A stretch of DNA of 31,757 nt from contig LSKJ01000034.1 in NCBI GenBank assembly GCA_001557035.1, positions 1 to 31,757 of the forward strand, read 5' to 3'. The notes under the pieces are model-generated. The model ran no database searches, was not told where the DNA came from, and saw only the letters and a program-made list of their open reading frames with translations. Numbering within the stretch: position 1 is the stretch's first letter; each line of letters opens with the position of its first letter. Of this stretch, positions 10,178 through 31,757 are shown piece by piece. The position numbers and the translations under genes are program-made. Source of the stretch: Rhodospirillaceae bacterium CCH5-H10. Lineage in GTDB: Bacteria; Pseudomonadota; Alphaproteobacteria; Reyranellales; Reyranellaceae.

Positions 10178-10677
10178 CCGACTTTCGCGGCGATGAAGTC
10201 CGCGATGGCGGCGATGTCGTCGCGGCGGAACCAGGGCAGCCCGGCATCGCGCGGCTGGACGTCCGATGCGATCGCCACGATGGCGGGATCTCCCGGCGCA
10301 AGCATCTTTGCCTCGTCGGAAGCGCGGACCTCGATCTTGAGATGCGGCTCGCTCTTGTAGCCTTCGATCAGGACGAGATCCGCCGGCGACAGGCGCGCCA
10401 GCACGTCGCCGATCGACGGCTCGGGCGTCTCGCACAGGATGGCGTAGCGCCGACCTCCGACCAGAGCCACCTCCCCCGCGCCGGCCGCGCGATGGCGCCA
10501 GGAATCCGTGCCCGGCTGGTCGATGTCGATGTCGTGGTGAGCATGCTTGATGGTCGCCACGCGCCAGCCGCGGCGCACGAACTCGGCCACCAGGCGTTCC
10601 GTCAGGGTTGTCTTGCCGGCATTCTTCCAGCCGGTGATGCCGAAGACCCGTTGACCAGGCGCGCCGTGATCGCTCAC
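10174..10677 (-). CDS. mobB: MobB, molybdopterin-guanine dinucleotide biosynthesis adaptor
   Basis: This 167-residue GTP-binding protein helps MobA attach GMP to molybdopterin, making the bis-MGD cofactor used by formate dehydrogenases. The Walker A motif GWKNAGKTT is at residues 16-24. TIKHAHHDIDIDQPGTDSWRH and LVLIEGYKSEPHLKIEV are diagnostic MobB blocks. The start is GTG at 10677, overlapping the TGA of fdhD by four bases (GTGA), so it is translationally coupled to fdhD. That context ties it to the formate dehydrogenase encoded at 20628-23720. No mobA was seen nearby. Confidence 0.95.
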   Translation of the reverse strand: MSDHGAPGQRVFGITGWKNAGKTTLTERLVAEFVRRGWRVATIKHAHHDIDIDQPGTDSWRHRAAGAGEVALVGGRRYAILCETPEPSIGDVLARLSPADLVLIEGYKSEPHLKIEVRASDEAKMLAPGDPAIVAIASDVQPRDAGLPWFRRDDIAAIADFIAAKVG

Positions 10678-11474
10678 GCCGTGATCCGATCGGCACAGGC
10701 ATAGGCGGTCAAACGACCCTCGCGCACGAACGCCACCAGCGCGATACCCGCCTGCTCGGCCGTCTCGATGGCGAGCGATGTCGGCGCGGAGACGGCGGCG
10801 ATGGCCGAGGCGCCGATGGCCGCCGCCTTCTGCACCATCTCGTAGGAACAGCGGCTCGTCACGACCACGAAGCCGCCCGCACCGGCGGAACCGCCCGGCG
10901 CGAGGGCACCCGCCAGCTTGTCGAGCGCGTTGTGTCGTCCGACATCCTCGCGCACGGCGACCAGCGCACCCTCCAGCGAGGCCCAGGCGGCGGCATGCAT
11001 CGCGCCGTTGAGCCTGTTGAGAAGCTGCTGCGCGGGCAGCGCCGCCATCGCCCGCTCGATGGAGAGGCGCGACACGGGCCGGGGTTGCCCGACGGCTGGC
11101 ACCGGCCGCAGGGCCGCGTCGAGGCTGTCGACGCCGCAGAGGCCGCAGCCGGTGCGACCGGCAAGGCTGCGGCGGCGCTCCTGAAGACCGGCCATCCGCT
11201 GCGCGGCAATCTCGAGCCGCACTTCCATGCCGCGCCCCACCGGCTCTGCCTCGATGTCATAGATCTCCGAAGCCTGCCCGACGATGCGCTCGGTGAGGGA
11301 AAAGCCGCGCCCGAAATCCTCGAGATCGCACGGCGTCGCCATCATCACCGCGTGGCTGATGCCGTTATAGACCAACGCCACGGCGACCTCCTCGGCCACC
11401 GCTTCCTCCAGCGACTCGCTGCCGGCGGCCGTCAGACGGCGGGCCGCCCGGCGGACCGTGCCGTCCGGGCTCAT
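10674..11474 (-). CDS. fdhD: FdhD, formate dehydrogenase sulfurtransferase
   Basis: The 266-residue protein matches FdhD, which passes sulfur from a cysteine desulfurase to the molybdenum cofactor before insertion into formate dehydrogenase. The catalytic CxxC is Cys110/Cys113 in TGCGLCGVDSL. Other family blocks are TPCDLEDFGRGFSLTE, REDVGRHNALDKLAG and VVTSRCSYEMVQKAA. The start at 11474 overlaps the stop of the upstream hypothetical gene as ATGA; the frame is open further upstream but that part overlaps another gene. It belongs to a four-gene minus-strand run (11851-12348, 11471-11842, fdhD, mobB). Confidence 0.95.
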   Translation of the reverse strand: MSPDGTVRRAARRLTAAGSESLEEAVAEEVAVALVYNGISHAVMMATPCDLEDFGRGFSLTERIVGQASEIYDIEAEPVGRGMEVRLEIAAQRMAGLQERRRSLAGRTGCGLCGVDSLDAALRPVPAVGQPRPVSRLSIERAMAALPAQQLLNRLNGAMHAAAWASLEGALVAVREDVGRHNALDKLAGALAPGGSAGAGGFVVVTSRCSYEMVQKAAAIGASAIAAVSAPTSLAIETAEQAGIALVAFVREGRLTAYACADRITA

Positions 11475-11842
11475 GCCGCGGTCTCGTCGATCCGCAGATG
11501 ACGGCCCTCGCGATCGAAGAAGAGGCCGCGATTGAGCGTCAGCGGATCGGCCTTCACGTCGGCTTCGACATCCTTGAGCCGGCGCGCCGCCACCGGATCG
11601 GGCAGCGGGCCGCCTTCGTGCCCCAGCCCCACGAAAAACGCGACACCGTCCCAGGGCGTGCGTGCGCCATCGAGCAGGCCGCGCATCTCCGGCCATGTCA
11701 TGTCGTCACCGATGAGATGGGCGTAGCTCGATCGCGACGGCACGGCGCTTGTGGGCGTGATCCGGACCAGCAGGATGAAGATCGTGAAGGGCCCGGTCTC
11801 GGCGAACTGTGCCGCAAGCCAGTGCTCGAAGTCGGTCTTCAT
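11471..11842 (-). CDS. Hypothetical protein coupled to fdhD (123 aa)
   Basis: I do not recognise this family. The protein begins MKTDFEHWLAAQFAETGPFT, followed by a hydrophobic strand IFILLVRITP. It contains HLIGDDMTWPEMRGLLDGA and GVAFFVGLGHEGGPLPDPVAA, and ends FFDREGRHLRIDETAA. No signal peptide or cysteine motif is present, so it is probably cytoplasmic. Its stop overlaps the fdhD start (ATGA), and the upstream hypothetical gene ends eight bases before its ATG. Translational coupling to fdhD and mobB suggests a role in formate dehydrogenase maturation, but that is only context. Confidence 0.82.
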   Translation of the reverse strand: MKTDFEHWLAAQFAETGPFTIFILLVRITPTSAVPSRSSYAHLIGDDMTWPEMRGLLDGARTPWDGVAFFVGLGHEGGPLPDPVAARRLKDVEADVKADPLTLNRGLFFDREGRHLRIDETAA

Positions 11843-13508: not shown

Positions 13509-13604
13509 TGGCGGAAGAGAGTGGGAGTCGAACCCACTAAGAACCGCCTAACGGCCCTCTCTGGCTTTGAAGGCCAGCCGCCCCACCGGGAGCGCTTCCC
13601 CTCC
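13509..13604 (-). tRNA. selC: tRNA-Sec (anticodon TCA), 96 nt with encoded CCA
   Basis: On the minus strand the gene starts GGAGGGGA and ends TCTCTTCC-G-CCA. This gives the long 8-bp acceptor stem (two G-T pairs) unique to bacterial tRNA-Sec. The anticodon arm CTGGC-CTTCAAA-GCCAG places TCA in the loop, which reads UGA. A long variable arm follows, then the T arm GTGGG-TTCGACT-CCCAC. Segments such as GGCGGCTGG, TTCAAA and GGTTCGACTCC match E. coli selC, also about 95 nt. This tRNA is charged with serine, converted to selenocysteine by SelA and delivered by SelB, both encoded upstream. Confidence 0.96.
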
Positions 13605-13611
13605 AAGGCCG

Positions 13612-13640
13612 ATGATTCACCAGAATGAATCCCCTGTCAC
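13612..13640 (-). promoter_or_regulatory. Candidate promoter of the tRNA-Sec gene
   Basis: On the minus strand GTGACA (13635-13640, five of six bases of the -35 consensus) is followed, after a 17-base spacer, by AATCAT (13612-13617, four of six for the -10). The -10 ends seven bases before the first G of the tRNA. Transcription would thus begin at or next to base 1, and selC need not depend on the selB operon. Confidence 0.5.
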
Positions 13641-13680
13641 CTGCCGTGCTAGGCTGAATGTCCCCAGAGGAATCAGGACC

Positions 13681-14031
13681 ATGTCGATCGAGCTGAAGTA
13701 CATCGTCGGAAACGTCTCGGATCTCCCGGCAGCGGTCGCTTTCTGGCGCGACACCGTCGGGCTGAAACTCAAGTTCCAGACGCCGGAGTGGGCCGAACTC
13801 GACACCGGCACCACCCGTCTGGCCCTCCAGCCCGCATCGCCCGCGAATCCGGCCGGCACATGGCAGCCGGGACTGCGCGTGCCGGATCTGGCGGAAAAGC
13901 GCGCCGAACTGCAGGCACGCGGCGTGAACATTGGAGCGGCCCCGCACGAGGAGCACGGCTTCCTGCTGTCGCTTTTCATCGGACCGGACGGTGCGCCGGC
14001 GAGCCTGAGCGGACCCGTCCCTAAGCCGTAG
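13681..14031 (+). CDS. VOC-family (glyoxalase-like) protein
   Basis: This 116-residue protein has the vicinal oxygen chelate pattern: ELKYIVGNVSDLPAAVAFWR then DTVGLKLKF in the first babbab unit, and GLRVPDLAEKRAELQARGVN then GPDGAPASLS in the second. Such proteins act as metal-dependent lyases, dioxygenases or antibiotic-binding proteins; the subtype cannot be told. The ATG at 13681 has AGAGGA about nine bases upstream. It is the only plus-strand gene in the selenocysteine island. Its 3' end overlaps the selB 3' end by 11 bases, and it diverges from selC. Confidence 0.82.
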   Translation: MSIELKYIVGNVSDLPAAVAFWRDTVGLKLKFQTPEWAELDTGTTRLALQPASPANPAGTWQPGLRVPDLAEKRAELQARGVNIGAAPHEEHGFLLSLFIGPDGAPASLSGPVPKP

Positions 14032-15919
14032 GCGGCGGGCCGTACTGGCCGCTCTTCAGCGGCACGGCACGGCGCAGGTCGCCGCGCCGGATGGTGATGC
14101 CGTGGCGGTCGAAGAACTCCAGGATCTGGATCGCGACCTTGCGGCCGTTGTCGAGCTTGTCGCGGAACTCGGCCGCGGTGAACTCCTTCCCGAAGCCGTT
14201 GGCGATGCCGATCATTTCCGCGACCACGGGGCGCAGGAAGTAATGATCCGGCGCCACCTCGACGACGCGGCCCAGCTTGGCCAGACGCTGCAGGAGCCGC
14301 CGCGTATCGGCCTCCGGCGCATCGTAGGTCTCGGCGAAGTCGCGCACGCGCGGCGGTTTGAACCTGTCGCGCGTCATGTCCGCCGAGATTTTCTGCCAGA
14401 GGGCCTCGTCGCGCGATCCGAGCTTCAGAGAATGGCCAGGCAGGCGCAGGAAAGCGCCGTCGACGGTCACGGCCTTGGCGCGGATCGCCTGGTCCAGCAG
14501 AGCCTTGAACACGGCGGCCGGCCAGCGACGCTTCAGGGTCACCCTGAGCCGCTCGGCCTGGAGGCCCGGCGCGTCGGCCCTGGTCTCGTGGAACGTCTTG
14601 AGCGTGTCGACGATGTCCTTCTTAGCCGCTTCGAGGGTTTCGGCCAGGAAACCGAACCCTTCGAGCCTCGCCCCGCCTGCCGCTTCCAGCAGTTTCTCCA
14701 CCTCCGCCGGCCTCAGATTGCGCGACAGGCCGAAGCGCGCGAGATCGACGAAGCCGCTTTCGAGACGCAACAGCTGCGGCATCACGTCGGCGTCGGGTTC
14801 GACGAGCGCCGCGAGTTCCAGCAGGCGCCGCTCGGCGCGCCGGTTACGCGGCGGACCGAACGGATCGATCGTCGTGGCGCCGGCCATCGTGCGGGTGGCG
14901 GAGGGATCGCGCAGGATCACCCGGTCGCCCGCCAGCGCACCCACCTTCTCGTCGAGGACGATCTGCGCGAGCCCGCCGTCGCCGGGCTGCAGGCGCTCGC
15001 CTTCGAGCAGCGCCACGCGGCCCATGACATGGGCCGATCCGAGATGCACATGCACCGGCGACCAGTGTTTGAGCGGCTGCGCCTCCGAGGCGAGCAGATT
15101 CAAACGAACGTCGATGCGATCGGTCGGCGCATGGAGTTCGGGACTGACGACCCAATCGCCGCGTCGGATCGCGTCCCTGGAAAGCCGGGGGCCTGCGAGA
15201 TTGAGCGCGCAACGCTCCCCCGCCCGTCCGATCTCCGCCGGCCGGTTCTGCGCGTGCAAGGACCGCACGCGGGCCTCGATGCCGGAGGGTGTCAGCAGCA
15301 GCCGGTCGTCGACCCTGATCTCGCCGGCATGAACGGTGCCGGTGACGACCACGCCCGCGCCGGACAGCACGAAGCAGCGATCCACCGCGAGCCGGGCGAA
15401 GCCTGCGGCGCCCTTGCCGCTCTCGCCGAGGACGAGGAGCTTTTCCTTGAGTTCCTCCACACCCTGTCCGGTCACCGCCGACACCGGGACGATCTCCGCG
15501 CCGCGCAGCGAGGTGGTGGACAGCAGCGTCTCGACCTCCGCCATGCGCTCGAGAAGCTGGTCGTCGTTGACCAGGTCGGACTTGGTCAGCGCCACGATGC
15601 CGCGATCGAGGCCCAGCAGGTCGAGGATCTGCAGATGTTCGACGGTCTGCGGCTTGATGCCTTCGGCTGCCGACACGACGAGCAGCGCCGCGTCGATGCC
15701 GGTCGCGCCCGCCAGCATGTTGTGCACGAAACGCTCGTGGCCCGGCACGTCGACGAAGCCCAGTTGCCTGCCGTCGCCGAGGTCGCTGTAGGCGTAGCCC
15801 AGGTCGATGGTGATGCCGCGCGCCTTCTCCTCCTTCAGTCGATCGGCATCGACGCCGGTCAGCGCCTTCACCAGCGCGGTCTTGCCGTGGTCGATATGGC
15901 CGGCGGTCCCGACGATCAT
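14021..15919 (-). CDS. selB: SelB, selenocysteine-specific elongation factor
   Basis: This 632-residue GTPase carries Sec-tRNA-Sec to ribosomes stalled at a UGA followed by a SECIS hairpin. The GTPase motifs are visible: GHIDHGKT (residues 7-14), the switch I block [14 protein letters not shown] near residue 58, and TKSD for guanine specificity. Beta-barrel domains follow. The last about 250 residues are the winged-helix repeats that bind the SECIS (for example [20 protein letters not shown]). Length agrees with known SelB (about 610-640). The ATG overlaps the stop of the upstream Sel1-repeat gene as ATGA, implying coupled translation. Confidence 0.97.
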
Positions 15920-16672
15920 GACAGGGGCTCCTCGGCGCGGCGCTCGGCTTCGGCGCGCTGCGACGGCTTGGCGTGCGCCCGCGCCTCCTTCAGGAAACCG
16001 GCCGCCAGTTCACCCGCGCCGTTCATCTCCGCGCGCCGCAACCAGTGCAGCGCTTCCACGACGTCGCGTTCGATTCCCTTGCCCGCGAGGCAGGCCGCGC
16101 CCAGCATCGCCTGCGCCTCGGGATGCCCGAGTCGCGCTGCGCGTCCCCACCAGCCGGCAGCCGCTTCAGCGTCGCGCTCGACGCCCAGCGCGTTGTGATG
16201 CATGTCGCCCAACCGCGCCATCGCCGCGGCGCGGCCCTGGGCCGCCGCCTTCTCCGCCCAATGCCGCGCACCGGCATAGTCCTGCGGGCAACCACCGCCG
16301 AGCAGCTTCATCCACGACAGCATGTCCTGCGCGTCGGCATCGCCCTGCAGGGCTGCCTTCTCGTAAAGAAGCGCGGCCTCGGCCTGGTCCTGCGGCACGC
16401 CCCAGCCCTCGTAATGGCAGAGCGCCAGGTTGCGCTGGCCGCCGGCATCGCCCTGCCCGGCGGCGCGCCGCAGCCAGTCGACCGCCTTGGCGTGATCCTG
16501 CTCCACGCCGCGACCTTCGAGGAAAGCCGCCCCCATGTTGCTCTGCGCCCGCGCGTGTCCCTCATGGGCAAGCGGCGCCCACAGGTCGAGTGCGACGCCG
16601 TAGTCGCCCGCCTTCCAGGCCGCCAGCGCCTCGGCCATCCGCTGCGCCGGCGGCGGCTTGCGATCGAGCAGC

Positions 16673-16689
<17 letters not shown>
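15916..16689 (-). CDS. Sel1-repeat (SLR) protein between selA and selB
   Basis: The 257-residue protein contains about five Sel1-like repeats of 36 residues, for example [20 protein letters not shown] followed by [20 protein letters not shown]. Each has the GxGVxxDxxKAxxWxxxAAxxG pattern. SLR proteins are alpha-helical scaffolds for protein-protein contacts; the shared name with selenium genes is coincidental. No signal peptide is seen, so it is probably cytoplasmic. The start at 16689 overlaps selA by 17 bases and the stop overlaps selB by four. An upstream ATG at 16728 would lengthen the overlap. Position in the operon hints at a scaffold for selenocysteine synthesis or delivery, but this is context only. 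Confidence 0.85.
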
Positions 16690-18061
<1,372 letters not shown>

Positions 18062-18134
18062 GGTTCTGTTTCCTGCAGGGTTTGGACGGACGGTCGTCCT
18101 CCGCGGACCAAGATGGCCCAGCACCCGGTATCGA

Positions 18135-19070
18135 TCAATGGTGCTGCATGATGCCTAGCACGAAGGGATTGGGCACGCGCGCGAACCCCTCTTCGCCGAC
18201 CAGCACGTCTAGGCCGAGCGATGCGAGATCGTCGGCCAGCGGCTCGATGGCGCGGACCTTCTCGACATAGAAGACCTTGGAATAGCCCTGACAGACCTCG
18301 CAGCATTCGGCGCGGAGATAGTCCGTGCCCGCCAGATTGCGGAACGAAATCTTGTCGGTGCTGCCGCAATGCACGCAGCGCACGCGGACATAGCGCCACG
18401 AGGTCGCGCACAGCGAACAATGAAGGTGGCGATGGCCGAACTTGGTGCCGCCCGGCGAGACCAGGCCGGAGACCGGCGGCGATCCGCAGGCCGGGCAGTC
18501 CCCGCTCTCTGCTTCGCTTGCGAGGTCGGCAGCGTCGAGCAGTGCCGCCATGCGTGTCCAGACGACCTGCAGGGCGGCCGCCACGAAAACCGCCTGCGCT
18601 GCTTCGGCGCCCGTGACGTCTCCCCCGAGGAAGCGATCGGCCAACGCCTCGAGGTCGGCCGGGCTGGCCGCGGCGAGGGTGTCTCTGGCCGCGCGCGCGG
18701 ACTCGGGCAGGATCTCTGGATCGATCCTGTCCAGGATTCGCAACAGGGCCACGCGCCAGCTTTCGTCACGCGACCAGATCGCTGGATCGAGCGGCGCGCG
18801 TTTCACCAGCTTCGCCTTGGCGATTTCGGCCGCGCCCGGCAGCGAGCCCGGCGGCAGGCCCGACAGGGCCTCGTGCTGGGCCGTCACCAGCCCCGCGATG
18901 AGGCGGAGGAACCCCTCGAGATCGTGACCCGGCGCCAGCTCACGCAGGCGCGCGGCGCGGACCTGGAAGAGCGTCGCGAGGTCGGGCAGGCGCACGCGCG
19001 CGCCCTCGGCGGCAGCGCCGAGGATGTTCTCGCCAAAATTAGCGGACGGATTTTCGGGACCGGAACTCAG
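18135..19070 (-). CDS. fdhE: FdhE, formate dehydrogenase accessory protein
   Basis: FdhE is a cytoplasmic rubredoxin-like protein needed for activity of exported formate dehydrogenases. Four cysteine pairs are present: CPACGS (192/195), CSLCAT (218/221), CVHCGS (232/235) and CEVC (257/260), plus the family segment VKRAPLDP in the middle. The start is uncertain. A CTG at 19070 overlaps the stop of the cytochrome b gene (CTGA) and gives 311 residues, near the 309 of E. coli. The first conventional in-frame start is GTG at 18995, with GAGGG seven bases upstream, giving 286 residues. I prefer the longer form because GENILGAAAEGARVRLPDL looks like a normal FdhE N-terminus. Confidence 0.92.
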   Translation of the reverse strand: MSSGPENPSANFGENILGAAAEGARVRLPDLATLFQVRAARLRELAPGHDLEGFLRLIAGLVTAQHEALSGLPPGSLPGAAEIAKAKLVKRAPLDPAIWSRDESWRVALLRILDRIDPEILPESARAARDTLAAASPADLEALADRFLGGDVTGAEAAQAVFVAAALQVVWTRMAALLDAADLASEAESGDCPACGSPPVSGLVSPGGTKFGHRHLHCSLCATSWRYVRVRCVHCGSTDKISFRNLAGTDYLRAECCEVCQGYSKVFYVEKVRAIEPLADDLASLGLDVLVGEEGFARVPNPFVLGIMQHH

Positions 19071-19696
19071 GACTTCCCGACTTCCTGACGGAACCACTTG
19101 CGATGGTGCTTCCATGCCCAGCCGCCGCTGACTGAACCGCGCGTCATGGCGCTCATCGTACCCTTGACCCAGATGGCTGCATAGACGTGCACGATCCAGA
19201 TCAGGATGGCCCCGATGGCGCACAGCGCATGGACGACCGCGGACAACCGCTTCTGGTCGATCGTGGTGTAGGACGCGAAATAGGTGTCCCACAGTACGAA
19301 CCCGCTGCCGAGCAGCAGCAGGATCAGGATCGACTGGCCCCAGAAGACGAGCTTCTGGCCGGCATTGTACTTGCCGAGTTCGGGCAGCCCCTCTTCCTTG
19401 TTGTTGATCACCGATCCTAGGTTCTTCATCCAGACCGTGTCGTCGCGGTTCCAGAAATTGAGCGTGAAGAAGCGGATGAAGAGGCCGAGGAAGCTGATGC
19501 CCAGGACGACGCCGATCCACGGATGGATGATGCGCGTCATCTGCCCGCCGCCGAACAGGTAGGTGAGGAAGTAGAGCGAAGGATGAAACAGCGCCATGCC
19601 GCTCAGGGCCAGCAGGACCAGCGACACCGCCGTGATCCAGTGGTTGATGCGCGCGGCCGTGGTGTAGCGGCTGACAGGCTTTGTGTGCTCGCTCAT
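19067..19696 (-). CDS. fdhI: Formate dehydrogenase cytochrome b (gamma) subunit
   Basis: This 209-residue integral membrane protein has four predicted helices, at about residues 20-38, 55-75, 115-135 and 150-172. It is the FdnI/FdoI type: it anchors the enzyme and passes electrons through two b hemes to quinone. Likely heme histidines are His19 (RINHW), His58 (IIHPW), and the histidines of VVHALCAIG and IVHVYAA. Length compares with 217 in E. coli FdnI. The ATG overlaps the stop of the iron-sulfur gene as ATGA, so the subunits are translationally coupled. Confidence 0.94.
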
Positions 19697-20613
19697 GCCT
19701 GCTTGCTCCCGGCCCCATCGGTTCCCGCCAGCTCGGCCGCCTTCTCCTCGTCGTGCTCGGTCACCCGGTTGGGTCCCTTGGTGACGTAGTGCATGAGGCC
19801 GAAGGCGCCGGCGAAGGCGATGGCCGCCAGCGACAGGGGCTTCATCACGCCCTTCCAGATGCCGACCAGCGGGCTGATGCGCGGATTGTCCGGCAGGCCG
19901 GCGTAGAGCGACGGCTTGTTGGCGTGCTGCAGCACGTACATCACGTGCGTGCCGTTCACGCCCGGCGGATTGTAGAGGCCGGCATTCTGGTAGCCGCGCG
20001 ACTTCAGGTCGGTGATGCGCTTGCCGGCATGGGCGATCATGTCTTCCTTGGTGCCGAAGTAGATCGCCTGCGTCGGGCAGGCCTTGGCGCAGGCCGGCGC
20101 CTGCCCGACCACGACGCGGTCCGAGCAGAGCGTGCACTTGTAGGCCTTGCTGGTGACCTGCGAGATGCGCGGGATGTTGAAGGGGCAGCCCTTCAGGCAG
20201 TAGCCGCAGCCAATGCAGTTGTCCGAGATGAAGTCGACGATGCCGTTTGTGTACTGCACGATCGCGCCCGGCGCCGGACACGCCTTGAGGCAGCCGGGAT
20301 CGTCGCAATGCATGCAGCCGTCCTTGCGGATCAGCCACTCCAGGTCGTCGCCGCGCTCGTGCTCGGTGTAGCGCATCACGGTCCACGACGCGGTCGTGAG
20401 ATCGGTCGGGTTGTCGTAGGTGCCGTCGGTGAAGCCGATCGGCTGGTCGAGCTGGTTCCACTCCAGGCACGCGGTCTGGCAGGCCTTGCAGCCGATGCAC
20501 TTGCTGACGTCGATCAGCTTCGCGACAGGAACCGCGGCAGGCTTGCCCGCGGCCGGCGGCGGCACGCTGGAGGCGGAGCGGCGGCGGAGATCGAGAGCTT
20601 GCATTACAGACAT
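19693..20613 (-). CDS. fdhB: Formate dehydrogenase iron-sulfur (beta) subunit
   Basis: The 306-residue protein is the four-cluster ferredoxin subunit that carries electrons from FdhA to the cytochrome b. Cysteine groups are 39/42/45/49 ([11 protein letters not shown]), 100/103/108/112, 133/136/139/143 ([11 protein letters not shown]) and 160/163/175/179. One membrane helix near residues 257-276 ([20 protein letters not shown]) anchors it, as in FdnH. GGGAGG lies about five bases before the ATG at 20613. It begins 14 bases after fdhA, and its stop overlaps the start of the cytochrome b gene. Confidence 0.95.
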
Positions 20614-20627
20614 CTCACCCTCCCCGA

Positions 20628-23600
20628 TCAGGCCACGGCCGGCGACGACGCCGGCGGGGTGGTTTTCTTCACGTCCACCAGGAACGCCTTGTATTCAGGC
20701 GTATTGGTGCTGGCGTCCCCGACCGCCGGCGTGAGCGTGTTGAGCGGATAGGACTTCCGCGCCATGCCCACGAAGCCGTAGTGGATCGGCAACCCGATCA
20801 CGTCGCAGGGCTTGCCGTCGACCATGATCGGCCGGAAGCGCTTCGACACGGACGCCTTTGCCTTGATCATGCCGCGCTGGCTCGAGACCTCGACCCAGTC
20901 GCCGTTCCTGATGCCCTTGGCCTTGGCCAGCCGCTCGCCCATTTCGACGAACATCTCCGGCTGGACCACGGCGTTGTCGTGGACGTTCTTGGTCCAGTAG
21001 TGGAAGTGCTCGGCGAGACGATACGAGGTCGCCACGATCGGGAACTTGTCGGGCGTGCCGAACGACTTGGCGTCGGCCGCGAACACCCGCACCACCGGAT
21101 TGGTGTTGACCTTGGGATGCAGCGGGTTGGCGATGTAGGCGTCCATCGGCTCGTAATGCTCGGGGAACGGCCCGTCGGGCATGGCGGTGCGGGAGAAGAG
21201 CCGCGCCGTGCCTTCCTGATTCATGATGAACGGACCGACCGACTTGTCGGGGGCCACCGTGGGCGCGTAGTCCGGCACGTCGGCACCGACCCAGCGCGAG
21301 CCGTTCCACGTGACGTACTTCTTGCGCTCGCTCCACGCCTTGCCGGCAGGATCCGCCGAGGCGCGGTTGTACAGGATGCGCCGGTTGGCCGGCCAGGCGT
21401 AGCCCCAGGTGGGGTGAACGCCGAGCCCGCTCGGGTCGCTGGCGTCGCGCCGCATCGCCATGTTGCCGGCCTCGGTATAGACGCCGGTGTAGATCCAGCA
21501 GCCGCCCGAGGTCTTGCCGTCGTCGCGCATCACCGCGAAGCCCGGCAGCAACTGGCCCGCTTTCAGCATCACCTTGGTGGGATCGGCCGGATCGGGCAGG
21601 TCCTCCAATGCGTAACCGTTGATCTCCTTCAGGAGCTCGACGGGCTCGGGATGCGCGGGTTTGGCGTAATTCCAGGTCGTGTTGAGAATGGCATCCGGGA
21701 AGGCCCCGCCATCCTTCGCGTACAGCGCCCGCAGCCGGCTGTGCAGATCGGCGACGATCTGGATGTCGCTGCGCGATTCGCCCGGCCCCTCCACCGACTT
21801 CCAGTGCCACTGGATCACCCGGCTCGAGTTGGTGAAGGTGCCTTCGTCCTCGGCGTAGGCCGTGGTCGGAAGCTGGAAGACCTCGGTCTGGATCGCCTTG
21901 GGATCGACGTTGTTGAACTCGCCGTGGTTCTCCCAGAAGCGCGCCGTTTCGGTCTGGAGCGGGTCCATGACGACCAGCCACTTGAGCTTCGACAGGCCCG
22001 CATGGATCTTGGCCTTGTTGGGCACGGCCATCATGACGTTGAGGCCCTGGCAGAACAGGCCGTTCATCTGCCCGCCCGCCATCATGTCGACCATCTTGAG
22101 GACGTCGTAGGAGGTGTCGAACTTGGGCAGGTAGTCGTAGGCCCAGTCGTTCTCCCTGGTCGCCGCCTTGCCGAACAGGCTCTTCTGCTGGCTGACGAAG
22201 AACTTCCCGTAATTCTGCCAGAAGCTGGTCTGGCCGGGACGGATCGGCTTGAAGGCGCGCGCCTTCATGTAGTCGGCGTAGGTCGCCTCACGTTCGGTCG
22301 GCAGGACCAGGTAACCCGGCGTCGAGGTCGTGAGCAGCCCGAAGTCGGTGATGCCCTGGACGTTGGAATGGCCGCGCAGCGCGTTCACGCCGCCGCCCGG
22401 GACGCCCATGTTGCCCAGCAGGAGCTGGATCATGGCCATGCTGCGGATGTTCTGGGCGCCGGTGGTGTGCTGCGTCCAGCCCAGCGCATAGAGCGAGGTC
22501 ATCGAACGCTCGCCGTTGGCGGTCGTGGCGATCAGCTCGCAGACCTTCAGGAACTTGTCCTTCGGCGTGCCGCAGATCCGCTCGACCATCTCGGGCGTGT
22601 AGCGCTCGACATGGGCTTTGAGCAGATTGATCGCACAGCGCGGGTTCTGCAGGGTCTCGTCGACCTTGGCCATGCCCTGCTCGTCGAACTCGTAGTCCCA
22701 CGCCGAGCGATCGACGTAGCTCTTGCGGGCCTCGTCGTAGCCCGTGAAAAGTCCATCCTCGAACTTGAAGCCTTCCTTCACGATGTAGGAGGCGTTGGTA
22801 TAGGCGTTGACGTACTGCTGGTGGATCTTGCCGTTACCCAGCAGGTAACGCATCACGCCCGACAGGAACGCGATGTCGGTGCCCGGCCGGATCGGCGCAT
22901 AGAGGTCCGAAACAGCGGCCGAGCGCGTGAAGCGCGGATCGACCACGATCAGCTTCGCGCCGTTGTTGGCCTTTGCCTCGACCACCCACTTGAAGCCGCA
23001 CGGATGGGCCTCGGCGGCATTGCCGCCCATGATCAGAACGACGTCAGCATTCTTGATGTCGTTCCACGAGTTGGTCATCGCGCCACGTCCGAATGTGGGG
23101 CCAAGACTGGCCACCGTCGGTCCGTGTCATATTCGTGCTTGATTCTCCAAGGCCAGTATCCCGGTGGACCGGATGGCCTTGTAGGTGAGGTAGCCCGCCT
23201 CGTTGCTGCAGGCGGAGCCGGCCAGGAAGCCGGTACTCACCCAGCGGTTGACCGTGACGCCGTCGCGGTTCTTCGCGATGAAGTTCTTGTCGCGGTCTTC
23301 CTTGGCGAGCTTGGCGATGCGCTCCATCGCGAAGTCCCAGCTCACGCGCTCGAACTTGTCGGAGCCGGGCTTGCGATGCATCGGGTACTGCAGGCGATTG
23401 ACGCTGTTGGCGAAGCCCAGCGAGGCTGCACCGCGCGCGCAGAGCGTGCCCAGGTTGATGGGATTGTCCGAATCGCCCTCGATGTGGACGACGCGCGCCT
23501 TCGTGTCCTTGGCGCCGTCGGTCGTCGAGTAGACGAGGACGCCGCAACCCACCGCGCAGTAGGGGCAGGTATTGCGTGTCTCGGTCGCCTTCTCGAGCCG

Positions 23601-23720
23601 GTACGGCCTGACGCCCGCGGCGAGCCCCTCGCTCGCACCGATGAAGCCCAATGCGCCCACGGAAGACGCGGCGAGGCCAGCAGCGCTCACCTTCATGAAT
23701 TGCCGACGTGTAACGGCCAT
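20628..23720 (-). CDS. fdhA: Formate dehydrogenase catalytic (alpha) subunit, selenocysteine-containing
   Basis: This is one gene of 1030 residues (E. coli FdnG 1015), read through an in-frame TGA at 23127-23129 as selenocysteine 198. It oxidises formate to CO2 at a bis-MGD molybdenum or tungsten centre in the periplasm. The N-terminus [12 protein letters not shown] is a Tat signal. CPYCAVGCG plus a later cysteine (GTLCARGA) binds a 4Fe-4S cluster. The site reads [19 protein letters not shown], with the conserved histidine after Sec, then [18 protein letters not shown]. The ATG at 23720 is chosen for GGAG seven bases upstream. The true stop is also TGA, so discrimination rests on the hairpin after the first TGA. 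Confidence 0.95.
23095..23114 (-). promoter_or_regulatory. bSECIS hairpin downstream of the Sec codon in fdhA
   Basis: On the minus strand GGCCA-GTCT-TGGCC (23099-23112) is a perfect 5-bp stem with a GTCT loop. It is extended below by GT pairing with AC across a two-base bulge. The hairpin begins 12-14 bases after the TGA, close to the spacing of the E. coli fdhF/fdnG elements (about 11), whose loop also contains GTCT. SelB would bind here while recoding the UGA at 23127-23129. Confidence 0.8.
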
Positions 23721-23882
23721 GTTCATCTCCATCCCAACGACGCTTATGAGGCAGTTAACCACCTCGTTTTTGTTTCGCGTCGCGGGACAGTCAAACGCTT
23801 CAGGGTGCGCGAATCAACAGGTAACTGGCCGATAACCGAAATTTGAGTGGGTTTTCCCGGTGCGCCGGGGCTCGGACGTGCC

Positions 23883-25134: not shown

Positions 25135-27432
25135 CTACTTCCGCGTGGACTGGATCGCCTGCCAGACGCGCTGCGGCGTCGCCGGCATCTGAATGTTGCG
25201 AACGCCCAGCGGCCACAGCGCGTCCATGATCGCGTTCATGACCGTGGGGGTCGAGCCCACCGTGCCGGACTCGCCGACGCCCTTGGCGCCGATCGGGTTG
25301 CTCTTGGCCGGAACGGTGTCGTCGAGCTGGTTGTTGAAGTTCGGGAAGGTCTCGGCGCGCGGCATCGCGTAGTCCATGAAGGAGCCGGTCACGAGCTGGC
25401 CGCTCTCGCGGTCGTAGACGTTCTCTTCCAGCAGCGCCTGGCCGATTCCCTGGGCGCAGCCGCCATGGATCTGGCCGAACACGATCGGCCGGTGCAGCGG
25501 CTTGCCGACATCGTCGACCGTCGTATAGCGCTTCAGTTCGACCATGCCGGTGTCGGGATCGATCTCGACCTCGCCGACATGGGCGCCGTTGGGCCAGGCG
25601 ATGCCGTCGACCGTGTTGACGTTCTCGATGTAGATGCGCTTGTCGGGCTGCTTCGCCGCCAGCTCGCCGAGGCCGATGCCGCGGTCGGTGCCGGTGATGG
25701 TGAAACGTCCGGCCGAATAGACGATGTCGGCGGTGGCCGCCTCCAGCGCGTCGGCCGCCAGTTCCTTGCCCTTGTCGACCAGCTTCTCGCTGCCGCTCAG
25801 CACGGCCGAGCCGCCGATATAGGCCGAGCGCGAGCCCATCGACCCGACGCCGCCGACGCGGTCGGAATCGCCCATCGCGATCTCGATCTTCGACGGATCG
25901 ATTCCCAGCAGTTCGGACGCAAGCTGGGTGAAGCTGGTCTGCAGCCCCTGCCCCATGCCCTGGGTGCCCATCCAGATCACGACCTTGCCGTCCGCCTTGA
26001 CCTCGTAATGCGCCATCTCGTTCATGACGTTGGCCGAAGTCCATTCGACATAGGAGGCAAGGCCGCGGCCATAGAGCTTGCCGCGCTTCTCGGCCTCCGC
26101 CTTGCGCGCCGCGAAGCCGTTCCAGTCGGCCGCTTCGAGCGTCTTGGTGAGGAAGAGATCGAAGTCGCCGGAATCGTACTTCTCGCCCATCGCCGTCGTG
26201 TAAGGCATCTGCGAGGGCTTCACGAAGTTACGCCGGCGCAGTTCGGCCGGATCCATGCCGATCTGGCGCGCCGCCGTGTCCATCAACCGCTCGAGGTTGA
26301 GGATGCACTCCGGGCGGCCGGCGCCGCGATAGGCGCCGATCGTGGCGGTGTTGGTGATGACGCAGGTGATCTTGAGGTCGATCAGCGGGATGTCATAAGT
26401 GCCGGTCGTGACCTTCGGGCCGACGAACAGCGGGATGACCACGCCGCCGCGCGACGGATAGGCGCCGATATTGGCGAAGGCTTCCATGCGCAGCCCCAGG
26501 ATGCGGCCGTCCTTGTCGAAGGCCATCGAGGCCTTGTGGAACTGGTCGCGGCCGGCGGTCGTGGCGGCGAATTCCTCGCCACGCTCGGCGCGCCAGCGCA
26601 CCGGGCGCTTCAGCACCTTGGCGGCCCACACGGCCACCGCCTCGTCGGGCTGGATGCCGACCTTCATGCCGAAGCCGCCGCCGATGTCGCGCACGACGAC
26701 GCGGACCTTGTCCTTGGGCATCTTCAGGATGACGTCGCACAGCGTGTCGCGGGTCACCGAGGGGTTCTGGCTGCCGATATGGACGATCAGCCGGTCGTTT
26801 TCCCACTCCGCCATGACCGCGCGCGGCTCCATCGCGTTCACGATCAGGCGCTGGTGCACGATGTCGAGCGACACGATGTGCGCGGCGCTCTTGAAGGCCG
26901 CCTCGGCCTTGTCGTGGTCGCCGAACTTGTTGTAGCCCGCGATGTTGCCGGGGGCGCCCTGCCAGACCTGCGGCGCGCCGGGCTTCAGCGCGTCCTCGAT
27001 CTCGGTGACCGAGGGAAGCTGCTCGTATTCGATCTCGACCAGTTCGACGGCATCCTGGGCCTGCTCGCGCGTGTCGGCCACGATGGCGACGACCGCCTCG
27101 CCGACATAGCGGACGACTTCATGGGCCAGCGACCGGCGCGGGGTCATCTCGGGCTTGCTGCCGTCGGCGGCGGGAAACATCGTCGGGAAGGCGAAATTGC
27201 CGGCGCCTTCCTTTTCCATGTCGGCCCAGGTGAAGACGGCGACCACGCCCGGCGCCTTTTTGGCGGCCGAGGCGTCGATCTTCAGGATTTTTGCATGCGC
27301 ATGGGGAGAACGAACGAGGACCACATGGGCCTGGTTCGGGCGCGAGAGGTTGTCGGTGAAGCCACCCGTGCCGGTCAGAAGCCGGTCATCCTCGACACGC
27401 TTGATGTACTGAGCCTTGCCAAACACCGCCAT
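25135..27432 (-). CDS. Form II CoxL-like molybdenum hydroxylase large subunit
   Basis: This 765-residue protein is the molybdenum-binding subunit of the xanthine dehydrogenase/CO dehydrogenase family. Visible blocks are the N-terminal RVEDDRLLTGTGGFTDNL, GGGFGMKVG near 251-259, and AYRGAGRPE at 367-375. The active-site glutamate is Glu721 in GAKGVGESGT. The AYRGAGR loop marks form II; true CO dehydrogenases have AYxCSFR, with the copper-binding cysteine. The substrate is therefore probably an aldehyde or N-heterocycle. No medium (FAD) or small (2Fe-2S) subunit gene lies beside it, which is unusual. The ATG at 27432 has GGGAG about seven bases upstream. Confidence 0.92.
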   Translation of the reverse strand: MAVFGKAQYIKRVEDDRLLTGTGGFTDNLSRPNQAHVVLVRSPHAHAKILKIDASAAKKAPGVVAVFTWADMEKEGAGNFAFPTMFPAADGSKPEMTPRRSLAHEVVRYVGEAVVAIVADTREQAQDAVELVEIEYEQLPSVTEIEDALKPGAPQVWQGAPGNIAGYNKFGDHDKAEAAFKSAAHIVSLDIVHQRLIVNAMEPRAVMAEWENDRLIVHIGSQNPSVTRDTLCDVILKMPKDKVRVVVRDIGGGFGMKVGIQPDEAVAVWAAKVLKRPVRWRAERGEEFAATTAGRDQFHKASMAFDKDGRILGLRMEAFANIGAYPSRGGVVIPLFVGPKVTTGTYDIPLIDLKITCVITNTATIGAYRGAGRPECILNLERLMDTAARQIGMDPAELRRRNFVKPSQMPYTTAMGEKYDSGDFDLFLTKTLEAADWNGFAARKAEAEKRGKLYGRGLASYVEWTSANVMNEMAHYEVKADGKVVIWMGTQGMGQGLQTSFTQLASELLGIDPSKIEIAMGDSDRVGGVGSMGSRSAYIGGSAVLSGSEKLVDKGKELAADALEAATADIVYSAGRFTITGTDRGIGLGELAAKQPDKRIYIENVNTVDGIAWPNGAHVGEVEIDPDTGMVELKRYTTVDDVGKPLHRPIVFGQIHGGCAQGIGQALLEENVYDRESGQLVTGSFMDYAMPRAETFPNFNNQLDDTVPAKSNPIGAKGVGESGTVGSTPTVMNAIMDALWPLGVRNIQMPATPQRVWQAIQSTRK

Positions 27433-27525
27433 ACGCCACTCCCGCCGCAAAACCCCTATCGGGTCGGCCGGACTATAGCGGCGATGCCGCGACCTACAAG
27501 CCAGCGCGACGCATGGCCCCGGGCC

Positions 27526-28323
27526 TCAATGGCGGAGGCTGGGCATCTCCGGCAGCGGCACGATGCGGATTCCCGCCGCTTCCAGGCCCTCGCGGACCGC
27601 CCTGGAGACGGTCACGGCGGTCGGCCCGTCGCCATGGACGCAGATCGAATCGACCTGGCAGGGGATGCGCTTGCCCGAGGTCGAGTAGATCGCCTGCTCG
27701 TCGACCATGCGCCGGACATGCTCCACCGCCTTGGCCGGATCCTTGATCATGGAATTGGCTTCCTTGCGCGGGGTCAGGAAACCGGCATCGGTGTAGGTCC
27801 GGTCGGCGAAGACCTCCTCGGCGACGCGCAGCCCGTGCTTGCGGGCGGCCTTGCCCTGCTCGGTATTGGCTTGGGCGAGGAAGATCAGGTCGCGATCGAC
27901 CGCCCTGGTCGCGCGCGCGATGGCTTCGGACATCTCGGGGCTCTCGGCCGACATGTTCGCCATCATGCCGTGCGGCTTCATGTGGGTGACCTTGCCGCCG
28001 TGGAGGGCCGCGATCGCCTGCAAGGCGCCAATCTGGTAGGCGATATTGGCCTCCAGTTCCTTGACCGTGAGGTTGATCACGCGACGGCCGAACCCCTGCA
28101 GGTCGGCGAAGCCCGGATGGGCGCCGATCGACACGCCGTTCTGCGTGCAGAGCTTCACCGTATCCATCATCACGACCGGGTCGCTGGCATGGAAGCCGCA
28201 GGCGACGTTGGCCGAGGTCACGATCTTCAGGACCTCGGTATCGTTGCCCATCACCCAGGGGCCGAAGCTCTCGCCCAGGTCGGAGTTGATGTTCACGTGT
28301 CCGGCATTCGTCGCGGCGGCCAT
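27526..28323 (-). CDS. pxpA: 5-oxoprolinase subunit A (LamB/YcsF family)
   Basis: The 265-residue protein matches PxpA, which with PxpB and PxpC forms the ATP-dependent 5-oxoprolinase that opens 5-oxoproline to glutamate. Family blocks include HVNINSDLGESFGPWVMGND, TSANVACGFHASDP, SIGAHPGFADLQGFGRR and THMKPHGMMANM. The ATG at 28323 has GAGGGAG six bases upstream and is preferred to one at 28338. Unusually, pxpA is divergent from pxpB with only 37 bases between start codons, while most genomes have them in one operon. The CoxL-like gene starts 93 bases downstream. Confidence 0.94.
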   Translation of the reverse strand: MAAATNAGHVNINSDLGESFGPWVMGNDTEVLKIVTSANVACGFHASDPVVMMDTVKLCTQNGVSIGAHPGFADLQGFGRRVINLTVKELEANIAYQIGALQAIAALHGGKVTHMKPHGMMANMSAESPEMSEAIARATRAVDRDLIFLAQANTEQGKAARKHGLRVAEEVFADRTYTDAGFLTPRKEANSMIKDPAKAVEHVRRMVDEQAIYSTSGKRIPCQVDSICVHGDGPTAVTVSRAVREGLEAAGIRIVPLPEMPSLRH

Positions 28324-28360
28324 GGGAGACTCCCTCAATTCGAGACGCTATCGTAGCAGA

Positions 28361-29098
28361 GTGAGCGTTCGGTACCTATCCTGCGGCGACACCGCCTTCA
28401 CTGTCGAGTTCGGCAACGAGATTTCCCCCGAGATCAACGGCCGGGTGATGGCGCTTCATGCCGCCATCGGCCTGGCCCGCGAGGCCGGCGAGATCGAGGG
28501 CGTCGTCGAGACTGTCCCCACCATGCGGTCCCTGATGGTGACCTACGACCCGCTGTCGACCTCGCGGGCCGACCTGCAGCCCCGGATCGACACGCTGATC
28601 GCCCGCGGTCTGCCTGTCGGCGCCGGAAGCCGGCGGGTCACGATCCCCTGCTGCTACGACGATCCCGAGTTCGCGCCCGACCTCGCCGAGGTTGCCGAGC
28701 GCACGAAGAAGAAGCCCGAGCAGGTGATTGCCGCCCACCTCGGCTCGCCCTTCAAGGTCTACGTGCTGGGCTTCATGCCCGGTCTCGCCTACGTCGCAGG
28801 ACTGGAACAATCCCTCTTCCTGCCGCGCCGCAGCCAGCCGCGCGTGCGCGTGCCGCGCTCGTCCGTCGCCATCGCCATGGACATGACGACGATCTATCCG
28901 TTCGAGAGTCCCGGCGGCTGGCACCTGATCGGCCGTACGCCGCTGTGGATGTTCGACAAGCGCCGCGAGCAGCCGGTCTTCCTGTCGCCTGGCGATTCGC
29001 TCGCCTTCGAGCGCATCGACCGCCGGAGCTTCGACCGCATCGCGCGCGAGGTCGAGGCCGGCACCTTCGACTGGTCGAGCCTGGTGAAGGGCAAATGA
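28361..29098 (+). CDS. pxpB: 5-oxoprolinase subunit B (KipI-like)
   Basis: This 245-residue protein starts VRYLSCGDTAFTVEFGNEIS. It contains the diagnostic GFMPGLAYVAGLEQSLFLPR, the block RVPRSSVAIAMDMTTIYP, and SPGGWHLIGRTP. PxpB is the allophanate hydrolase subunit 1-type partner of PxpC. The start is GTG at 28361; the ribosome binding site is weak (AGCAGA). The frame is open upstream on this strand but that part lies over pxpA. The stop overlaps the pxpC start as ATGA. Confidence 0.94.
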   Translation: MSVRYLSCGDTAFTVEFGNEISPEINGRVMALHAAIGLAREAGEIEGVVETVPTMRSLMVTYDPLSTSRADLQPRIDTLIARGLPVGAGSRRVTIPCCYDDPEFAPDLAEVAERTKKKPEQVIAAHLGSPFKVYVLGFMPGLAYVAGLEQSLFLPRRSQPRVRVPRSSVAIAMDMTTIYPFESPGGWHLIGRTPLWMFDKRREQPVFLSPGDSLAFERIDRRSFDRIAREVEAGTFDWSSLVKGK

Positions 29099-30192
29099 GC
29101 GCCGCGTTGAAAGTCGTCCGCGCGGGACTGTTCGACACGCTTCAGGATTTCGGCCGCACCGGCTTCATGGCGCTCGGCATGCCGACTGCCGGCGCGATGG
29201 ACCGGATCGGGCTCGGCCTCGCCAATGCACTTGTCGGCAATCCCCAGGACACCGCCGGCATCGAGATCGGCGTCATGGGTCCCGACCTGCTGGTCGAGGC
29301 CGACAGCGTGCGCGTCGCTCTCGTGGGCCCGCTCTCGCCCCAGCTGATCGACGGGCCCGACGCAACGTCCAAGCCGCTCGAGTCCGACCGCAGCCATCTG
29401 CTGAAGCGCGGCCAGACCCTGCGCGTCGGCATGATCGAGGGAGCAAGTACGGCATACGTCGCGGTGGCCGGCGGCTTCGCGCTGCCTTCCTTCATGGGCA
29501 GCCTCTCGACCTATTCGCGCGCCGGCATCGGCGGCTTCGACGGCCGCAAGCTGGCCGCCGGCGACCTGCTGCCGCTCGCGAAGGCCAGCGTGCCGGCGGT
29601 CAACGAACGAAAACTCGCACAAGCTTTCGACTATGGCAGCGGCCCGGTCCGCGTGATCTGGGGACCGCAGGAAGATTATTTCAGCGAGGCTGGACGCAAG
29701 ACCTTCGTCGAGTCCGAGTATCGCGTCTCCAAGGAAGCCGACCGCATGGGCATCCGCTTCGAGGGGCCGGTGATCGCCCACGCGAAGCCCGTCGACAAAG
29801 GCGGCGCCGACATCATCTCCGACGGCATCGCGCCCGGCGCCATCCAGGTGCCCGGCGCCGGCCTGCCCATCGTGCTGATGGCCGACCGGCAGACGGTCGG
29901 CGGCTATCCCAAGATAGCCACCGTCGCGTCCGTCGACCTGCCACGCCTCGGCCGCTTGCTGCCCGGCCAGACCGTGCGCTTCGCCGCGATCACCGTCGAG
30001 GAAGCCGAAGCGCTGCGCCGCGACCAGGAAGCGAGGCTGCAGCGCGCCATTGCTGGTTTTGTCGTCGCGCGCCCGCCTGGTGGTATCGATCTCGTCCGGC
30101 TCTATGAAGAGAACCTGATCGACGGCGTCGTTTTCGATTCGCCGTGGAACGTCACCTCGAAGCCTTCATCGGCCGAGGGCGGCACGAAGTAG
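29095..30192 (+). CDS. pxpC: 5-oxoprolinase subunit C (KipA-like)
   Basis: The 365-residue protein begins LKVVRAGLFDTLQDFGRTGF and has the family blocks GMPTAGAMDRIGLGLANALV, TAYVAVAGGFALPSFMGS and RMGIRFEGPVI, then GAIQVPGAGLPIVLMADRQT. Together with PxpA and PxpB it forms 5-oxoprolinase. The ATG at 29095 overlaps the pxpB stop by four bases. The last 91 bases, after the usual conserved end, overlap the convergent P-loop gene on the other strand. The C-terminal segment FDSPWNVTSKPSSAEGGTK looks like an extension. Confidence 0.94.
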   Translation: MSAALKVVRAGLFDTLQDFGRTGFMALGMPTAGAMDRIGLGLANALVGNPQDTAGIEIGVMGPDLLVEADSVRVALVGPLSPQLIDGPDATSKPLESDRSHLLKRGQTLRVGMIEGASTAYVAVAGGFALPSFMGSLSTYSRAGIGGFDGRKLAAGDLLPLAKASVPAVNERKLAQAFDYGSGPVRVIWGPQEDYFSEAGRKTFVESEYRVSKEADRMGIRFEGPVIAHAKPVDKGGADIISDGIAPGAIQVPGAGLPIVLMADRQTVGGYPKIATVASVDLPRLGRLLPGQTVRFAAITVEEAEALRRDQEARLQRAIAGFVVARPPGGIDLVRLYEENLIDGVVFDSPWNVTSKPSSAEGGTK

Positions 30193-30638
30193 CTGGTGAA
30201 GAGATCGAACTCAGCGTCGCTGACGTTGTAGGCGTGAGTACCGGCGGCATTGCGGGCACGCAGCCGGGCCTTGCAGACATCGTCGGGCACGTCGAGGAAA
30301 TGGAGTTGGTGACTCGCACCGGCGCGCTCGAACAGGCTCCGCATCCACTGACGGCTGGCCGGCGTGTTCGCGGGAAAGTCGAGCACCACCGAAAGTCCCG
30401 CCTCCAGCAGCGTTACGATATGGTCGCCCATCACCTCACGCAGGCGGCGGGAGTTGCGAACATAGTCCTCGATCGTCTTCTGCTCGTCCTTGAAGAGACA
30501 GGCGAGCCACGCATCTTCGCTGATCCGGATTGTGTGGGGATGTGCTGCCAGTTTGGCGGCGAGCGTCGACTTTCCGGCGGCGATCTTGCCGCAGATCATG
30601 TGGAGCGTCGCTCCTTCCCGCCTTGCCGTTTCGTCCAT
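30102..30638 (-). CDS. P-loop ATPase/kinase-like protein (178 aa)
   Basis: The N-terminal THLHMICG-like start is followed by the Walker A motif GKIAAGKST at residues 17-25 and ISEDAWLACLF, the kinase-type second motif. GLSVVLDFPANTPASRQWMR looks like a Walker B-containing strand and acceptor region. A lid-like LDVPDDVCKARLRARNA follows. This pattern matches small AAA/zeta-toxin-like kinases of unknown substrate. The ATG at 30638 has AGGGAAG six to seven bases upstream, which favours it over an ATG at 30656. No antitoxin-like partner gene is present, so a toxin-antitoxin role is not supported. Its 3' end lies under the end of pxpC by 91 bases. Confidence 0.82.
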   Translation of the reverse strand: MDETARREGATLHMICGKIAAGKSTLAAKLAAHPHTIRISEDAWLACLFKDEQKTIEDYVRNSRRLREVMGDHIVTLLEAGLSVVLDFPANTPASRQWMRSLFERAGASHQLHFLDVPDDVCKARLRARNAAGTHAYNVSDAEFDLFTSYFVPPSADEGFEVTFHGESKTTPSIRFSS

Positions 30639-30747
30639 CGGTCGCTTCCCTTGCAAAGACCGGTTTACAGTAGCCGCTCCGGTTCTTGATTGGTACGAAC
30701 CGCAAGGGCTGGAAACGTTCCGACAAACGATCGGGGGATGCGTCGAG

Positions 30748-31757
30748 ATGAGCTGGCAACCGGAAATGGACGAGTTGCGCCGCCGTCAGGAATTGACGAA
30801 GCGCATGGGCGGCGCCGACAAGGTCAAGCGCCAGCACGATGGTGGCCGACTGACGGTACGCGAGCGCATCGAACGGCTGCTCGACAAGGATTCCTTCCGG
30901 GAGATCGGCAGCGTCGCCGGCAAGGCTGAATATGATGGCAAGAACGACCTGGTCGACCTCACGCCCGCCAACGTGGTGATGGGCCGCGGCAAGATCGATG
31001 GCCGTCATGTCGCCGTCACCGGCGACGACTTCACAGTGCGCGGCGGCTCGGCCGACGCGACGATCAAGGAGAAGTCGAACTTCGTCGAACGCTACGCCAA
31101 CCAGTACCGGGTCCCGGTTATCCGGCTGATCGAGGGATCGGGCGGTGGCGGCTCGGTGAAGACCATCGAGACGACCGGCCGCGCCAACGTACCCGGTGTG
31201 AGCGGCTGGGAATGGGCGGTGCGCAACATGGGCGCGGTTCCGACCGTGGGCCTCGGCTTGGGCTCCGTCGCGGGCCTGGGCGCCGCGCGCCTGGCAGCGA
31301 CGCACTATTCGGTGATGGTCAAGGAAGTGTCGGCGGTGTTCGTTGCCGGTCCGCCCGTCGTGAACCGCCTCAGCCCCAAGCAATACGACAAGCAGGAACT
31401 GGGCGGCTGGGAGATCCAGCTTCGTGCCGGCGCCATCGACGAAGCCGTCGACAGCGAGGACGAGGCCTTTGCCGCGGCGCGCCGCTTCCTCTCCTACCTG
31501 CCCTCTTCGGTCTACGACGCGCCGCCGCGCGGCCCCGTCACCGACGATCCGGCGCGGCGCGAGGAATCTCTGTTCGAAGTCATCCCGCGCGATGTGCGCA
31601 AGGTCTATCGCATCCGCCCCATCGTCGAGAAGGTCGTCGACCAGGGCAGCTTCTTCGAGATGGGTCGCCTCTACGGCCGCTCCGTCGTGACGGGCTTCGC
31701 GCGCGTCGACGGCTGGCCGGTCGCGGTGATGGCGAGCGACCCGATGTTCTATGGTGG
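30748..31757 (+). CDS. Acyl-CoA carboxylase carboxyltransferase subunit (3' end cut by window)
   Basis: The frame begins MSWQPEMDELRRRQELTKRM and stays open to the window edge (336 codons). The N-terminal carboxyltransferase domain of the propionyl-CoA/methylcrotonyl-CoA carboxylase beta family is visible: GGRLTVRERIERLLDKDSF, the VMGRGKIDGRHVAVTGDDFT block and IKEKSNFVERYANQYRVPVI, then the glycine-rich IEGSGGGGSV and GPPVVNRLSPKQYD. The C-terminal domain starts near VYRIRPIVEKVVDQGSF. It would transfer a carboxyl group from biotin to an acyl-CoA. GGGGGA lies about eight bases before the ATG. The biotin carboxylase partner, if present, is beyond the window; substrate unassigned. Confidence 0.9.
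   Translation, partial: MSWQPEMDELRRRQELTKRMGGADKVKRQHDGGRLTVRERIERLLDKDSFREIGSVAGKAEYDGKNDLVDLTPANVVMGRGKIDGRHVAVTGDDFTVRGGSADATIKEKSNFVERYANQYRVPVIRLIEGSGGGGSVKTIETTGRANVPGVSGWEWAVRNMGAVPTVGLGLGSVAGLGAARLAATHYSVMVKEVSAVFVAGPPVVNRLSPKQYDKQELGGWEIQLRAGAIDEAVDSEDEAFAAARRFLSYLPSSVYDAPPRGPVTDDPARREESLFEVIPRDVRKVYRIRPIVEKVVDQGSFFEMGRLYGRSVVTGFARVDGWPVAVMASDPMFYG

Follow-up and report, generated by a model that had tools for sequence, protein, structure and literature searches.

The window analyzed here is the whole of a 31,757-nucleotide stretch of contig LSKJ01000034.1 from Rhodospirillaceae bacterium CCH5-H10. Its minus strand carries a gene for a formate dehydrogenase-N alpha subunit (fdnG) with an in-frame TGA at codon 198, a selenocysteine insertion sequence (SECIS) match that takes in this codon and, further downstream, genes for the decoding of selenocysteine (Sec). 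Under translation table 11 the coding region appears as two minus-strand frames, 23762-23127 (211 amino acids) and 23114-20628 (828 amino acids). When TGA was read as a residue, a single frame of 1030 residues was obtained from the ATG at 23720 to the stop at 20628, with codon 198 (23129-23127, minus strand) as its only internal TGA.

20628..23720, minus strand: fdnG/fdoG, formate dehydrogenase-N alpha subunit, 1030 residues through UGA codon 198 (TIGR01553, 1kqf_A)
23127..23129, minus strand: in-frame TGA, predicted selenocysteine codon 198 (on the X of 1kqf_A; TGA in relatives)
23074..23132, minus strand: SECIS element with apical hairpin GGCCA-GUCU-UGGCC and a bulged U below (RF01989, fold, paired changes in relatives)

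A single formate dehydrogenase frame across the TGA

The fdnG product matched the formate dehydrogenase-N alpha model TIGR01553 with 1436.4 bits, against a curated cut-off of 814.2, over model positions 2-1009 of 1009, and genes for the beta and gamma subunits lie beside it. In HMMER its residues 1-1019 aligned with E. coli FdnG (1kqf_A, 1391.5 bits), and codon 198 fell on the X, a modified residue, of that solved chain. An earlier note on this DNA had joined the two adjacent frames into one gene, placed the TGA at the Sec site of FdnG-type enzymes and proposed an alignment of the joined translation with FdnG. The alignment bears out both claims, since FdnG homology runs on both sides of the TGA in a single frame. 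The long plus-strand frame 20781-23846 (1021 amino acids) was rejected as a gene: with a GC content by codon position of 0.89/0.45/0.58, against 0.58/0.45/0.91 in the main fdnG frame, it was regarded as the mere shadow of fdnG on the opposite strand.

Conservation was analyzed in the best 80 of at least 587 confirmed stretches from a genome scan, a sample of closer relatives which therefore says nothing on Cys forms further out. The nearest DNA among these 80 was L001, a Rhodospirillaceae metagenome-assembled genome (MAG; 86.7% over 21 kb), followed by a Rhodospirillales MAG and Reyranella MAGs. The TGA was present at the site in all 80 relatives (79 by alignment, L051 by direct reading) and also in two plasmid relatives. 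By default such a TGA inside a long frame would end translation, and it could have come from an error in sequencing or from a nonsense mutation of recent date, in a pseudogene or in place of a normal cysteine. Its presence in 80 of 80 relatives makes a sequencing error, which the earlier note had named as grounds for giving up its reading, untenable. Moreover, in an ungapped comparison omega before/after the TGA was 0.036/0.058 against L001, 0.090/0.074 against L002, 0.108/0.081 against L003, 0.226/0.236 against L006 and 0.297/0.280 against L007, where indels would inflate the values for L006 and L007. Purifying selection acts on the fdnG protein both before and after the TGA and, with a SECIS match and Sec machinery beside the codon, the probability of an error or a pseudogene is close to nil.

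The SECIS hairpin and its two registers

The SECIS_3 model (Rfam RF01989) matched positions 23132-23074 of the minus strand over its whole length from the UGA on. The hairpin begins 14 nt past the TGA, in agreement with the earlier note, which had placed a hairpin with a GTCT loop 12-14 bases downstream. Its stem is 5 bp long, and its loop of 4 nt opens with a G, 19 nt after the UGA; stem, loop length, loop position and first loop base are all inside the limits for bacterial SECIS elements cited in PMC13188914. An in-frame UGA at a known Sec position and a SECIS directly after it, as expected of a bacterial selenoprotein gene, are thus both present.

The window shares with SECIS_3 the whole model, the bulged U and the 5-bp apical stem, but its loop is GUCU rather than GUC, its 3' arm lies one base further on and its score is lower. 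The usual form among relatives is GG-U-GGCCA-GUC-UGGCC-CC and that of the window GG-U-GGCCA-GUCU-UGGCC-CC, so that bulged U and stem are alike, the loop gains one base and the reading frame is kept. When five relatives were scanned with RF01989, the two with the usual form scored 81.8 and 84.6, and those three that share the hairpin of the window reached 63.4, 63.4 and 64.9. Both registers were then scored in 81 sequences: the window, 79 relatives and L051, which was added by direct reading, its match having been split by a run of N. The slid form was found in seven of them (the window, L001, L004-L007 and L051), each with all seven pairs formed and with CTT followed by Gly at codons 206-207. 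In the usual register 71 of the remaining 74 are fully paired (seven of seven), and three make six pairs in either register; Gly207 is not exclusive to the slid form, being found in 28 of these 74 as well.

The hairpin pairs are kept while both sides vary among relatives. Columns 24-30 hold C-G in 65, G-C in 12 and A-T in 4 of the 81 sequences, and columns 21-33 hold G-C in 67, A-T in 6, G-T in 5 and C-G in 3. The 62 distinct sequences of the usual form make on average 6.98 of 7 pairs, against at most 6.27 in 1000 shuffles and at most 4.27 when slid, a comparison inflated by relatedness. With the window's register forced on all 80 sequences, 50 of them made three of five pairs. Some single codons are conspicuously constant: Ser205, in the hairpin loop, is AGT and His199 is CAC in 80 of 80 sequences, with Thr202 as ACG in 75 and Val203 as GTG in 71 of 80. 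A literature search on Reyranella and selenocysteine brought up only work on fish feed. Beyond the literature searched, we do not put the slid hairpin forward as new.

Sec machinery and the separation of selB from selC

Downstream of fdnG the minus strand carries, in order, fdnH, fdnI, fdhE, selA, a Sel1-repeat gene, selB, tRNA-Sec and, further on, fdhD, with one gene of the opposite strand between selB and selC.

19693..20613, minus strand: fdnH/fdxH, iron-sulphur beta subunit (TIGR01582, 446 bits, cut-off 334.7)
19067..19696, minus strand: fdnI, cytochrome b gamma subunit, 209 amino acids from the ATG at 19696 (PF01292, 85.5 bits, in frame 19067-20500)
18135..19115, minus strand: fdhE, accessory protein, candidate starts ATG 19115 or GTG 19097 (TIGR01562, 241 bits against a cut-off of 187.65, over residues 244-521 of frame 18135-19718)
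16673..18124, minus strand: selA, selenocysteine synthase (TIGR00474, 565.8 bits, cut-off 267.9)
15916..16728, minus strand: gene for a Sel1-repeat protein, between the selA and selB frames and overlapping each (PF08238, five stretches)
14021..15919, minus strand: selB, selenocysteine-specific elongation factor (TIGR00475, 467.1 bits, cut-off 242.25)
13681..14031, plus strand: glyoxalase-like gene between selB and selC (PF00903 in frame 13567-14031)
13509..13605, minus strand: selC, tRNA-Sec, anticodon TCA, 97 nt (ARAGORN; RF01852, 71.5 bits, gathering score 47)
10674..11696, minus strand: fdhD-like gene of the sulphur-carrier/accessory family (PF02634, 236.1 bits, residues 101-338)

SelA, SelB and tRNA-Sec, the decoding apparatus expected with a bacterial selenoprotein, are all inside the window. 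The UGA might instead be decoded as a different residue, such as Cys through an unusual tRNA, or mostly terminate translation; with a standard tRNA-Sec (anticodon TCA) and with SelA and SelB over their family cut-offs in the window, this is very improbable. Among the 80 loci, many of them cut by contig ends, fdnH was found in 78, selA in 56, selB in 58 and tRNA-Sec in 53. SelB was found over its family cut-off in 11 of 11 related genomes and selD in 9, L001-L003 included.

A relative of the Sel1-repeat gene is present in 25 of the 80 loci. The selD match in the genomes of L001, L002, L003, L007 and L051 falls in open frames of 745-801 amino acids, a length far beyond the 311 positions of the family, so that SelD may carry an additional fused domain in these genomes. 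The locus L042 (Enhydrobacter aerosaccus) holds fdnGHI-fdhE, and the next 10 kb downstream contain neither selA nor selB; in its genome selB was found over cut-off on another contig or beyond the locus. L053 (titled Mycobacterium sp. KBS0706) and L012 (a Candidatus Eremiobacteraeota MAG) carry a proteobacterial-type cluster with an FdnG identity of 61-62%, and are mislabelled, misbinned or hold a transferred cluster. Elsewhere in the window, 25135-27450 (minus strand) encodes the large subunit of a xanthine/CO-dehydrogenase-type molybdenum enzyme, its best NCBIfam match being under the curated cut-off, and in 27526-31755 a LamB/YcsF gene (minus strand) faces two carboxyltransferase-domain genes and a carboxyl transferase (plus strand), resembling the PxpABC sets of 5-oxoprolinase.

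The glyoxalase-like gene is convergent with selB and overlaps its 3' end by 11 bases. It was also found between selB and selC in L001-L003, where the gap is 414-415 bp (415 bp in the window), and had no match in any other of the 80 loci. The gap measures 31-52 bp, without this gene, in L006, L007 and L051. The slid hairpin and the glyoxalase-like gene between selB and selC are the two less ordinary traits of the locus, and are small traits of the lineage.

Mukai 2021 (PMC8124441) describes selC nested in selB in Alphaproteobacteria; in the window selC is neither nested in nor overlapping selB. A strong SelB match was present in 57 loci, four of them without tRNA-Sec. Among the 53 that have it, selC sits within the selB frame in 29, contains the stop codon of selB in two, and is separated from selB by a gap below 150 bp in 17 and by a larger one in five, which agrees with that description. 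Just before selC of the window there is a promoter-like pair at 13640-13612 (minus strand), GTGACA and AATCAT with 17 nt between them (9 of 12 letters), whose TGACA and AAT-AT are invariant in seven aligned related sequences, suggesting that selC may have a promoter of its own. A bolder interpretation is that the Sec-decoding unit was rewired in a Reyranella-like lineage: the hairpin would have slid by one base (GUC to GUCU, with the 3' arm shifted), SelB would putatively have adapted, and selC, with its own promoter, would have been freed from the selB-selC coupling proposed for Alphaproteobacteria, so that a convergent gene could part it from selB. We regard this as a rather unlikely account.

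Interpretation and significance of the locus

Since FdnG homology lies on both sides of the UGA, a SECIS matches directly after it, and selA, selB and tRNA-Sec are in the same cluster, the UGA is best read as Sec, as the earlier note had proposed, and the gene almost certainly encodes the Sec-containing, catalytic alpha subunit of a formate dehydrogenase of the membrane-bound FdnGHI/FdoGHI type. SelB with Sec-tRNA-Sec would bind the hairpin just past codon 198, and the ribosome would put in Sec there rather than stopping. As in the family, Sec198 would be a ligand of the active-site metal, and the product would be an active enzyme located at the membrane. The cluster would provide the other two subunits (beta and gamma), FdhE and FdhD for maturation, and SelA, SelB and tRNA-Sec, with SelD presumably encoded outside the window in the same genome.

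Several observations weigh against this assignment. The SECIS_3 score of the window, 63.4 bits, is just 0.4 over the gathering score of 63. The folding energy of its 59 nt is not beyond chance (z -1.04, with 30 of 200 shuffled versions as stable), with z values of -1.04, -0.85, -1.64, -1.40 and +0.64 in five sequences including the window. Averaged over codons 199-213, the 15 that follow the TGA, synonymous conservation is unremarkable and ranks 249 of 766 windows. Furthermore, selD was not identified in the window, and two of the 11 related genomes are without selD over cut-off. Folding energy was dropped as evidence for the SECIS, the window being no better than shuffles; what does go beyond chance is the homology before and after the TGA, the conservation of the TGA and the paired changes in the hairpin.

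In E. coli, selA, selB, selC and fdhE lie apart from fdnGHI, whereas in the window they form one cluster with it. The window shares with E. coli FdnG (PDB 1kqf) the position of the modified residue and the set of beta and gamma subunits. Linked fdhA-selA-selB-selC clusters are already published (Zhang 2006, PMC1794560; Mukai 2021, PMC8124441), the latter paper describing fdoGHI-selABCD clusters in Alphaproteobacteria. The window has the same content and order, fdnG-H-I-fdhE-selA-selB-selC, and differs in that its selC neither is nested in nor adjoins selB and in that it holds no identified selD. Gene and cluster are of a well-described kind, another copy of a known type, here in a Reyranella-like alphaproteobacterium.

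The earlier note had also expected conventional annotation to split the gene. This is partly right, table 11 giving two frames, but too general, because in the record of Terrarubrum flagellatum fdnG is one coding sequence across the in-frame TGA at its codon 198. Of 1261 matching plasmid records, 15 were listed, with fdnG annotated under the match in four, no fdnG there in nine and two unannotated, in a gene table incomplete by its own description. The region should be annotated as a single selenoprotein gene rather than as two pieces; it is the client gene in a compact unit for Sec decoding. Of the two small natural variants, the slid hairpin could serve to test what SelB requires of a SECIS, and the parting of selB and selC to test whether their linkage has a function.
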